DNA from: Clostridia bacterium
GTDB lineage: Bacteria > Bacillota > Clostridia > Oscillospirales > CAG-272
Assembly (NCBI GenBank): GCA_017481595.1
Contig: JAFUOY010000017.1
Coordinates: 29,618-93,617, forward strand
Reading direction: 5' to 3'
DNA: 64,000 nucleotides
Below are positions 8,399-21,275 of the stretch, piece after piece. The notes below the pieces were generated by a model. That model was not told the origin of the DNA, did not search any database, and was given only the letters and a program-made list of their open reading frames with translations. The position numbers were made by a program, and so were the translations under genes. The stretch's first letter is position 1. Every line of letters starts with the position of its first letter.

Positions 8399-8410
8399 TG
8401 TTTACATAGG

Positions 8411-8576
8411 TAGGGACAGGCGTCCCCGACTGTCCGAGGAAATAAGGGACAAAAGCAAAGCTTTGGTTTAGAAGATAGATATTACGACATAATCGGTAGG
8501 GGAGGGGCTTGCTCCTCCCATATTTTGTGAGAATTGAATTTATGCTGGAACGGACAGTCGGGGACGCCTGTCCCTA
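8411..8576. repeat. intergenic element with perfect 25-bp inverted ends
   Basis: The left arm at 8411-8435 and the right arm at 8552-8576 are exact reverse complements over 25 bp (each reads TAGGGACAGGCGTCCCCGAC... inwards). Between them are 116 bp with a further GC-rich hairpin (GGGGAGGGGCTTGCTCCTCCC). There is no reading frame. It resembles a non-autonomous miniature element or REP-type palindrome; no clear target-site duplication is visible. Confidence 0.6.
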
Positions 8577-8630
8577 CAAAAAGATAATAAATCTCAAAGC
8601 ACCTTGACGTAAGGACTTGCCCAAAAACGA

Positions 8631-8675: not shown

Positions 8676-8816
8676 TTATTTAAAGAATCTGATTCTGTTA
8701 AGAGCCACTATAAATCCAATAAGAATGCCCATTACGATAAAGATACCGAGCATACCGAGACCCATATACTTAAACGATTCAAGAAAAGCTTCAAAATTTA
8801 TATTGAATTCAAACAT
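8676..8816 (-). CDS. 46-residue OadG-like single-helix protein
   Basis: A short open frame of 47 codons with ATG at 8816 and stop at 8676-8678. It encodes a 46-residue protein with an acidic N terminus, one hydrophobic helix (about residues 18-38, GLGMLGIFIVMGILIGFIVA) and a basic end RIRFFK. It lies 15 bp after the OadB-like gene on the same strand. Gamma subunits of Na+-translocating decarboxylases (OadG) are small single-helix proteins in the same position, so a gamma-like stabilising partner is likely. It lacks the proline/alanine linker and the C-terminal Zn-binding tail of classical OadG, and is much shorter. Confidence 0.7.
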   Translation of the reverse strand: MFEFNINFEAFLESFKYMGLGMLGIFIVMGILIGFIVALNRIRFFK

Positions 8817-8831
8817 ATTTACCGCCTTTCA

Positions 8832-9953
8832 TTATAAGAAGAAGTTAAGGATAAGACCGCCCGCAATAACTGAGCCGATCTGACCTGATACGTTTGCGCC
8901 AATGGAGTGAACGAGCAAGAAGTTCTGGTTGTCCTCCTCAAGGCCGATTCTGTTTACGATTCTTGCGGACATGGGGAATGCAGAGATACCTGCCGCGCCA
9001 ACCATAGGATTGATCTTCTTTCCTTCGGGCAAGAAGAGGTTCATAAGCTTAGCGATCATAATACCGCCGAATGTATCAAAAATAAACGCAATAAGGCCGA
9101 GACCGAGGATGATTACTGTGCCCCAGTTTACAAATGCCTCTGCCTTCATTGTAAAGGCAACGGTGATGCCGAGGAATATTGTAATAAGGTTAGCAAGAAC
9201 CTTTTGCGCTGTTTCAGAAAGGGATTCAAGCACACCGCACTCACGGATAAGGTTACCGAACATAAGGAAGCCTATAAGTGCAACCGCGCCGGGAGCAAGC
9301 ATACCTGTGATTATGGTAACGAGAATGGGGAATACTATTCTTGTAAACTTGGAAACGCTTGCAGGTGAATAGGGCATTCTGATACGGCGTTCCTTCTTAG
9401 TTGTACAAAGCTTTATAATAGGAGGCTGTACAACGGGAACAAGAGCCATATAAGAGTACGCCGCAACCGTGATGGGACCTAAAAGATGAGGAGCAAGCTG
9501 AGTTGCAACTACAATGGACGTAGGACCGTCTGCCGCGCCGATAATAGCGATTGATGCCGCTTCCTTGAAGTCAAAGCCTACCAAGGATGCAAGGGAAAGG
9601 GTCATAAAAATACCGAACTGCGCCGCCGCGCCGAAGATCATAAGCTTCGGGTTGGAAAGGATAGGACCAAAGTCTATCATTGCGCCGATACCTATAAACA
9701 AGATAAGAGGGAATAATTCGTTTGCGATACCTGCTTCGTAAAGAGTTTCAAGTACCTCGGAAACACCGGCAGTACCGGAGTTGTTTGGCAAATTCATAAG
9801 AATAGCGCCAAAGCCCATGGGAAGTAAAAGTGTCGGTTCCATCTTCTTCTTGATAGCAAGGAAGATAAGAACACCGCCGATGACCCACATTACAAGCTGC
9901 TTTAAGAAAAGGTCACCGTCAAGCTCCAAAATGTTTTTGAATAAAGCTTCCAT
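8832..9953 (-). CDS. Na+-translocating decarboxylase beta-subunit-like protein (OadB family)
   Basis: A 373-residue, highly hydrophobic protein with about ten membrane helices and OadB/GcdB/MmdB family features: IGIGAMIDFGPILSNPK, the GAADGPTSIVVATQLAP block, PPIIKL and the C-terminal GANVSGQIGSVIAGG. In this family the beta subunit couples biotin-linked decarboxylation to Na+ export. The ATG at 9953 is chosen because AAAGGAA lies just upstream; an in-frame TTG seven codons earlier is less likely. No carboxyltransferase alpha subunit or biotin carrier is in the window, so the pump is orphan here. A candidate Mn2+-type riboswitch precedes it, which is unexpected. Confidence 0.9.
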   Translation of the reverse strand: MEALFKNILELDGDLFLKQLVMWVIGGVLIFLAIKKKMEPTLLLPMGFGAILMNLPNNSGTAGVSEVLETLYEAGIANELFPLILFIGIGAMIDFGPILSNPKLMIFGAAAQFGIFMTLSLASLVGFDFKEAASIAIIGAADGPTSIVVATQLAPHLLGPITVAAYSYMALVPVVQPPIIKLCTTKKERRIRMPYSPASVSKFTRIVFPILVTIITGMLAPGAVALIGFLMFGNLIRECGVLESLSETAQKVLANLITIFLGITVAFTMKAEAFVNWGTVIILGLGLIAFIFDTFGGIMIAKLMNLFLPEGKKINPMVGAAGISAFPMSARIVNRIGLEEDNQNFLLVHSIGANVSGQIGSVIAGGLILNFFL

Positions 9954-9981
9954 AAAAATTCCTTTCTTTTTCAATTTATAA

Positions 9982-10016
9982 TAAAAAGACCCTTAACAAA
10001 AGAAACCTTTTGTTAA
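9982..10016 (-). terminator. riboswitch-linked intrinsic terminator
   Basis: On the minus strand a 10-bp stem TTAACAAAAG/CTTTTGTTAA (10007-10016 with 9993-10002, 4-nt loop) is followed by TCTTTTTATT. Its 5' arm shares 10013-10016 with the 3' strand of riboswitch stem P1, so ligand-bound P1 and the terminator exclude each other; ligand should turn the gene on. Confidence 0.75.
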
Positions 10017-10116
10017 AAGTCTTGTTATAAACTTAAGTAAAGCTTATGATAGCCCCGGGCAAAAGCCGTATTGACGAGACTACCAACACGCAAGCGTGCA
10101 AACTACTCCCTTTTAA
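10013..10116 (-). promoter_or_regulatory. candidate yybP-ykoY (Mn2+) riboswitch aptamer
   Basis: Read on the minus strand, the leader of the OadB-like gene fits the yybP-ykoY architecture: P1 UUAAAAG (10116-10110) pairs with CUUUUAA (10019-10013); GGGAGUAG follows P1; a P2 hairpin CACGCUUGCGUG; then UAGUCUCGUCAAU, the conserved GUCA loop, with GGGCUA closing the second arm; an AU-rich hairpin; and AACAAGACUUUU at the 3' end. These blocks match my memory of the Lactococcus lactis yybP riboswitch in order and spacing. Members of this class bind Mn2+ and usually control Mn exporters. Confidence 0.72.
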
Positions 10117-10147
10117 AAATATTCAGTTTTGATAAAGAGCCATATAT

Positions 10148-10177
10148 ATTATACAATAATCTTTAGTGATTTGTCAA
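10148..10177 (-). promoter_or_regulatory. sigma-A promoter of the riboswitch/OadB operon
   Basis: On the minus strand TTGACA (10177-10172) and TATAAT (10153-10148) are 18 bp apart. Transcription would begin about 25 nt before the aptamer. Confidence 0.75.
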
Positions 10178-10209
10178 CAATATTTTTTAAACTTATCCTT
10201 TATATGAAC

Positions 10210-10238
10210 TTGACAAATAGAAATATTAGTGATAAAAT
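10210..10238 (+). promoter_or_regulatory. sigma-A promoter of the split transketolase operon
   Basis: TTGACA (10210-10215), 17 bp, TAAAAT (10233-10238). It lies about 70 bp before the start codon at 10307, divergent from the OadB promoter. Confidence 0.75.
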
Positions 10239-10306
10239 ATTTTTTACCACCCTATTATTTTTGATAATAATATTATTGTTTTAATAAATGTATCCGGAGG
10301 CTATAA

Positions 10307-21199: not shown

Positions 21200-21275
21200 G
21201 CTACTGTGGCTCAGTTGGTAGAGCACATCCTTGGTAAGGATGAGGTCACCGGTTCGATTCCGGTCAGTAGCTCCA
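21200..21275 (+). tRNA. tRNA-Thr (GGT)
   Basis: A 76-nt cloverleaf. The acceptor arms GCTACTG/CAGTAGC pair, the D arm has AGTTGGTAGAGC, the anticodon stem CATCC/GGATG encloses TTGGTAA with anticodon GGT, and the T arm has GGTTCGATTCC. CCA is encoded at the 3' end (21273-21275). It is followed directly by a terminator. Confidence 0.96.

Follow-up and report, generated by a model that had tools for sequence, protein, structure and literature searches.

A Mn2+-type riboswitch candidate before an orphan OadB-like gene in Clostridia and its possible link to cation export

The leader and the two genes behind it

The window analysed here, a stretch of 64,000 nucleotides from a Clostridia bacterium, carries on its minus strand a leader (10116-9983) for which a yybP-ykoY (Mn2+) riboswitch overlapped by a terminator is the best reading, followed by an orphan OadB-like gene (8832..9953) and a small open reading frame, mini-oadG (8676..8816). 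Upstream of the leader a promoter (10148..10177, minus strand) is predicted purely from its match to the consensus at 12 of 12 positions, with TTGACA (10177-10172) and TATAAT (10153-10148) separated by 18 nt.

The original prediction had described the aptamer blocks and the overlapping terminator in order, and all of them are present. The yybP-ykoY-type aptamer (10013..10116) was delineated by checking the pairs, by folding, by covariation and by comparison of L3 with the structures described in part of PMC6754395. On the minus strand it comprises P1.1, UAAAAG paired with CUUUUA (10115-10110/10019-10014), L1 with GGAGUA (10109-10104) opposite AAGA (10023-10020), P1.2 (10103-10101/10026-10024), P2 (10099-10086), P3a (10084-10077/10055-10048), L3 with CGUCAAUACG (10076-10067) and the discriminator A10072, P3b (10066-10059), and P4 (about 10047-10027). 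The intrinsic terminator (10023-9986, and 9983..10023 with its T run, minus strand) has 17 pairs, and its 5' arm holds the 3' half of P1.1. The full leader (10120-9975) folds with -45.4 kcal/mol, where dinucleotide shuffles average -27.5 kcal/mol (z -5.07), and none of the 200 folded as well. When folded alone, the aptamer piece (10120-10013) forms P1.1 and three hairpins at -28.6 kcal/mol; the full-length leader favours the 17-pair terminator, which uses up the 3' half of P1.1.

The OadB-like gene starts at an ATG (9953-9951, minus strand) with an AAAGG Shine-Dalgarno-like stretch upstream. Its product matches the oxaloacetate decarboxylase beta subunit, OAD_beta (PF03977), at 3.6e-151 with 503.6 bits (cut-off 31.6), TIGR01109 at 2.7e-126, and the Salmonella chain of PDB 6iva at 1.8e-96, the last of these matches leaving no doubt about its family. 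The placing of an OAD_beta gene downstream of the leader thus stood; the start of the coding sequence had to be corrected to this ATG, and a second open reading frame of 46 aa, mini-oadG, was added to the gene content. Mini-OadG, read from the minus strand, has one hydrophobic stretch, MGLGMLGIFIVMGILIGFIVALN, and no C-terminal tail, and was recognised by the recurrence of such frames, found by regular expression, behind OadBs of the second clade described below. No match to OAD_gamma (PF04277) was obtained for the window protein, its only match being YesK at 0.0005, below the cut-off. Downstream of the operon, a 26-base sequence, GTAGGGACAGGCGTCCCCGACTGTCC, at 8410-8435 returns inverted at 8552-8577 (seen by eye in the window), and may belong to a small mobile element.

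Recurrence and class of the leader

With the leader DNA as query, 29 of 194 related genomes gave a match at E<=0.01, mostly a short one. Strong homologues were found at five loci (L003-L007), and the motif was also present at L009, L025 and L029. At L025 (1678-2301) the leader precedes a 208-aa protein without a Pfam family, which has a Cys-rich N-terminus and a hydrophobic stretch. A pattern derived from the window leader (AAAAGGGAGTAG-gap-CGTCA-gap-ARGACTTTT) was run over a species-genome collection and returned at least 119 stretches in other genomes. The leader is therefore not a product of chance, as homologous leaders stand before orthologous oadB genes in related genomes and at least 119 further stretches carry the motif. 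Two genomes of the same genus hold a second motif copy (L249 in G011 and L259 in G023); the copy in G011 precedes an SPFH-like gene, as judged by eye.

For the analysis of covariation, 128 copies, all distinct, were parsed from the scan matches listed and from seven copies at the leader-homologue loci. The figures given here come from unbiased sets; a set selected for pairing, being biased, was left out. The junction helices P1.2, P3a and P3b pair more often than in shuffles. Pair 2 of P1.2 stands in 127 of 128 copies among the matches listed (shuffle mean 88.7, a count reached in none of 1000 shuffles); for pair 3 the figure is 112 of 128 among the matches listed, while pair 1 is nearly invariant across the copies and thus uninformative. 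Pairs 1 and 2 of P3b stand in all 51 copies with unambiguous anchors among the matches listed (shuffle means 34.2 and 31.0), and pairs 1 to 3 of P3a in 63, 56 and 59 of 81 copies among the matches listed (means 38.5, 34.1 and 33.7). Pair 5 of P3a is weak, standing in 44 of 81 among the matches listed, a count that 13 of 1000 shuffles equalled or exceeded. As the search pattern prescribes P1.1, this helix is unable to covary within the 128 copies; in L220, which lies outside the pattern set, it reads GAGAG/CTCTC. P4 is seen in the fold of the window leader and is missing, by eye, from some members. Among the matches listed, 105 of 128 copies are followed by a terminator-like complement with a T run; the upstream control gave 4 of 127.

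Behind 125 of the 128 copies an open reading frame of 60 aa or more begins within 600 nt; the longest such frames were clustered, and their Pfam names were taken from cluster representatives. Among the matches listed, these first genes encode P-type ATPases (27), OAD_beta (25), Band_7 (22), Na_Ca_ex (12) and CitMHS (11) proteins; two clusters, of six and two genes, gave no Pfam match for the single member tested from each, and 20 genes were singletons. Without the seven copies that belong to the window and its kin, OAD_beta still accounts for 20 of 118 among the matches listed, third after the P-type ATPases (27) and Band_7 (22), so that the pairing of leader and oadB recurs outside this group. 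The Band_7/SPFH genes (at L047, L086, L101 and 19 other scan loci, with Pfam run on three members) are among the commonest first genes. Their share of 22 of 125 among the matches listed means that the targets of the riboswitch are not transporters only. At L046 the order is riboswitch, an NptA-like gene (by eye), OadB and mini-gamma. According to part of a published regulon survey, a large portion of yybP-ykoY targets are transporters for tellurium resistance or for unknown substrates (PMC3766115). A limited search of the open-licence PMC literature found no publication linking yybP-ykoY with oadB.

The features that tie the leader to the Mn2+ class lie in L1, in L3 and in the overall layout. 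The G-rich core of L1, GGAGUA opposite AAGA, is a yybP-ykoY feature. Comparison of the letters places a putative Mn2+-contacting adenosine, A10072, within the L3 sequence UCAAUAC; in the L. lactis structures, as described in part of PMC6754395, L3 reads UCA41AU43UC, Mn2+ is bound on N7 of the invariant A41, and the docking contact is made by the conserved A10 of L1. The window leader further shares the P1.1/P1.2/P2/P3/P4 layout of the known forms and the inclusion of the 3' half of P1.1 in the terminator; competition of P1.1 with the terminator is the mechanism reported for L. lactis in the portion of PMC11087558 available. The alx and mntP leaders of E. coli are described as Mn-sensing riboswitches in passages of PMC9603457. 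The alx leader has the same L3 module as the window leader, CGUCANNACG...CCG, whereas mntP has GUCAACAU...GGC. What sets the window leader apart from the known forms is its target gene, OadB, and the silence of the Rfam 15 model, RF00080.

The Infernal checks named with the original prediction gave no match to either of the models proposed. At gathering scores the sole Rfam match in the window was a tRNA at 21200, and the leader was unmatched. At E<=10, the region 9900-10300 gave 18 chance-level rows, with MIR9563 on top (23.2 bits, its cut-off being 90); RF00080, with its cut-off of 45 bits, had no match at the leader, and its single place in the genome of the window reached 10.5 bits on another contig. 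Sodium and lithium switches, for which Rfam presumably holds families, were absent from the same 18 rows, Na+-I included. Na+-I, the DUF1646 motif, is likewise an ion switch, which in some cases precedes oxaloacetate decarboxylase genes, but it has a two-stem architecture according to parts of PMC9337991; this class was dropped for the window leader, as it gave no match among those rows. Four homologous loci showed no RF00080 at E<=10 and chance-level rows at two of the leaders (for instance preQ1-II at L007, 22.2 bits against 47), and at gathering scores 18 scan loci gave no RF00080 rows. Over 147 genomes of the order RF00080 found a match in six, none of them above the cut-off; in 14 control genomes it matched in nine, and above the cut-off in two. 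In the E. coli K-12 control it scored the mntP leader at 41.6 bits, under its cut-off, and listed nothing at E<=1 for the alx leader (L158). Since RF00080 misses alx and underscores mntP, its silence does not exclude membership in the class, and so narrow a model decides little about the window leader. The absence of a covariance-model match, named with the original prediction as grounds for refutation, would by itself have spoken against the riboswitch, but in the light of the alx control it is uninformative.

A covariance model (R1) built from 66 scan matches, with the window and its kin left out, retained no more than 11 base pairs, since the hairpins differ in length and so misalign; we therefore counted covariation by position in a script. 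R1 scores the window leader at 59.7 bits (E 5.6e-11), which serves as a consistency check, its core letters deriving from the window-based pattern. It also matches five of the six sub-cut-off RF00080 places (L151 and L153-L156, E 3e-4 to 0.045), L152 being the exception, and leaves E. coli mntP and alx unmatched at E<=5. A bridge between the two models is provided by L155, the leader of a second-clade oadB with an mntP-like L3, which is found by RF00080 at 24.9 bits, under the cut-off, and by R1 at E 4e-4.

It could be argued from the chance-level Rfam matches, and from the consensus L3 letters of RF00080, which differ from those of the window leader, that we are dealing with a distinct riboswitch class or with a variant of altered specificity that senses another ion (Na+, Ca2+ or another transition metal). 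We hold this to be very improbable, considering that the window and its kin retain both the discriminator A and the core of L1 (in the 128 copies both are fixed by the search pattern, so that those copies provide no evidence), that E. coli alx has the same L3 module, and that the 18 rows contain no sodium or lithium switch. On the basis of sequence, structure, covariation, gene company and the parallel with alx, the leader is in all likelihood a riboswitch of the Mn2+ class, as had been proposed.

Two clades of OadB and a reduced gamma subunit

The description of the gene as an orphan is supported. No OadA or biotin carrier was seen by eye among the open reading frames around the window oadB, and the single PYC_OADA match found in the genome lies on contig C11, in a run of a gamma-like frame, a biotin-carrier-like frame, OadB and OadA (gamma and biotin carrier by eye). 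The genome, 62% complete, thus holds two OadBs, one in each of two clades. In a tree of 86 OadBs, 35 sequences are split from 51 with a support of 100. OadA was found in the same locus for 31 of the 35 members of the first, or OadA, clade. The second clade of 51 comprises all 29 rows labelled as riboswitch-linked, 20 without a riboswitch, and L046 and L155. When 28 OadBs from a wider phylum sample and the Salmonella chain were added, the second clade grew to 79 members, set off by a branch 1.24 changes per site long with a support of 100; the placement of the Salmonella chain is unsure, since its long branch joins at the second-clade branch (a program warning).

All 32 riboswitch-linked OadBs (L046, L155 and L269 included) fall into the second clade, and the OadA clade with its 35 members contains none; GGGAGTA was absent within 400 nt upstream of OadB at the 13 first-clade loci examined. 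Within the second clade the riboswitch is sporadic, being present in 8 of 28 loci examined in relatives, a count that leaves out a few partial matches at contig ends, and in 2 of the 30 loci that scored best in the phylum sample, that of the window included. At nine riboswitch-free loci of the same genus (L212-L217, L219, L222 and L228) the second-clade oadB lies directly after the end of a cysteine-desulfurase-like gene, as judged by eye.

A small open reading frame with one hydrophobic stretch around GxGMxGIF was found by regular expression downstream of 44 of the 51 OadBs in the first set of the second clade. Of the seven misses, five show such a frame on inspection, and two (L041 and L077) are cut at the end of the locus. 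These mini-gammas measure 38-54 aa in 27 of 44 cases, the remainder having N-terminal extensions. OAD_gamma, with which they have the membrane helix in common, was matched at E<=1 by 21 of the 36 mini-gammas scanned (best 3.8e-5). The gamma-like frames of two canonical operons measure 105 and 125 aa and carry a C-terminal tail (by eye), whereas the mini-gammas are tail-less in all 44 cases, ending 26-40 residues past the start of the GxGMxGIF core. In six mini-gammas (L213, L214, L216, L217, L219 and L222) the N-terminal extension is, by eye, long, begins like a signal peptide and contains several Cys pairs; zinc-ribbon families match one or two of the 36 scanned. In the wider phylum sample a mini-gamma was present at 3 of 28 new loci, a fourth regular-expression match (L276) looking spurious.

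The residues essential in the Salmonella pump, E40, D203, R304, N311, S382 and N412, which include its Na+ sites (as given in part of eLife 53853), provide a further means of comparison. The window OadB keeps four of the six; R304 is replaced by S244 and N311 by K251, which, together with its separate clade and the missing OadA and biotin carrier, distinguishes it from a regular beta subunit of the same family. Where aligned, E40 is kept in 50 of 50 second-clade members of the first set, and the Na+-site residues D203, S382 and N412 in 51 of 51, 51 of 51 and 49 of 49. By contrast, R304 is replaced by S in 38 of these 51, and N311 by K in 37, with N kept in 11, against R in 35 of 35 and N in 35 of 35 in the OadA clade; T148 is I in all 51. 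Among riboswitch-linked OadBs, 29 of 32 are without R or K at 304 and 21 of 32 without N311, three keeping both Arg304 and Asn311. Since 19 of the 20 first-set members without a riboswitch have also lost both residues, the loss tracks the subclade with mini-gammas and not the riboswitch. In the wider second-clade sample, R or K at 304 and N311 are both kept in 20 of 28 members. Mini-gamma and loss of R304 had been considered as a mark of the whole second clade, which was dropped as the phylum sample disagrees. E134, D353 and Q416 set the second clade apart and are found in all members aligned at those sites; their candidacy as Mn2+ ligands was dropped, as they also occur in riboswitch-free members and in L281, which lies in an OadA operon.

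These data bear on the possibility that the orphan OadB still serves a decarboxylase as its beta subunit and borrows OadA and the biotin carrier from elsewhere, the Mn2+ status tuning the choice between beta subunits. The run on C11 would offer such partners within the same genome, the second-clade OadB at L281 of the wider sample is itself part of a BCCP-OadB-OadA operon (at L275 of that sample OadA lies on the opposite strand), and the conservation of E40, D203, S382 and N412, and of positions 304 and 311 in most of the wider sample, fits a working beta subunit. We nevertheless regard borrowing as unlikely in view of the replacements at R304 and N311 in the first 51 members, of the truncation common to all 44 mini-gammas, and of an OadA query on L032-L150, which found no match within the available stretches, some of them ending inside or just past oadB.

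A possible function in the export of cations

Starting from the observed anatomy, covariation, recurrence, clade split, gene neighbourhood and residue changes, we favour the reading that the leader is a Mn2+-sensing yybP-ykoY ON switch, with an alx-like L3, for a probable cation exporter built on the membrane core of the decarboxylase, and we give it a probability of just under one half; Mn2+ as the ligand of this leader, the ON direction and the ion moved are what we infer within it. At high Mn2+, L1 and L3 would dock and P1.1 would form, so that its 3' half would be withheld from the terminator and the oadB-mini-oadG operon would be transcribed; at low Mn2+ the terminator would form. The product would be a second-clade OadB distinct from the beta subunit of the OadA operon of the cell, with an elevator-type core that keeps the Na+-site residues, a gamma subunit cut down to its membrane helix, and neither an alpha subunit nor a biotin carrier beside it. 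Its most likely task would be the export of a cation, Mn2+, perhaps in exchange for Na+ or H+, during Mn2+ overload. Both original suggestions, a metal- or Na+-linked transporter and a control of Na+ export by metal status, are compatible with these data.

Mn2+ itself can be proposed as the exported ion only tentatively. To the same tentative degree, second-clade OadB and mini-OadG may constitute a previously unrecognised family of Mn2+ exporters, in which a decarboxylase pump core without its biotin engine has been turned into a secondary metal transporter and placed repeatedly under Mn2+ riboswitches. Three observations count against it: 53 of 57 relatives, the genome of the window included, have MntP; the Band_7 targets show a riboswitch that serves more than transporters; and second-clade OadBs lack the riboswitch at 20 of 28 loci in relatives and at 28 of the 30 loci that scored best in the phylum sample. 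A role of the orphan OadB as the only Mn2+ exporter was dropped, given the presence of MntP.

Mn2+, or alkaline pH together with Mn2+, might instead induce a Na+ exporter, the second-clade OadB moving Na+ and thereby restoring the gradient for Na+-coupled Mn2+ exporters. The retention of D203, S382 and N412 wherever aligned agrees with this, as does the occurrence of Na_Ca_ex genes behind the same motif. The alx gene responds to alkaline pH as well. Its leader, Mn-sensing according to part of PMC9603457, shares the L3 module. Such a pump would have no evident energy source, as neither an alpha subunit nor a biotin carrier adjoins the gene, and Arg304 is missing in 29 of the 32 riboswitch-linked members, which makes Na+ export rather doubtful, if less so than the borrowing of an alpha subunit.

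The recurring pairing of leader and OadB in other Clostridia suggests that this OadB branch helps cells to handle excess manganese. Moreover, many such leaders in Clostridia are missed by the current Rfam model, and the Mn2+ regulons of this group are therefore probably under-annotated. Stand-alone OadB genes are commonly annotated as decarboxylase beta subunits even though they have no decarboxylase for a neighbour, and the occurrence of a Mn2+-type riboswitch within an OadB clade that is well separated constitutes a specific lead to their function.
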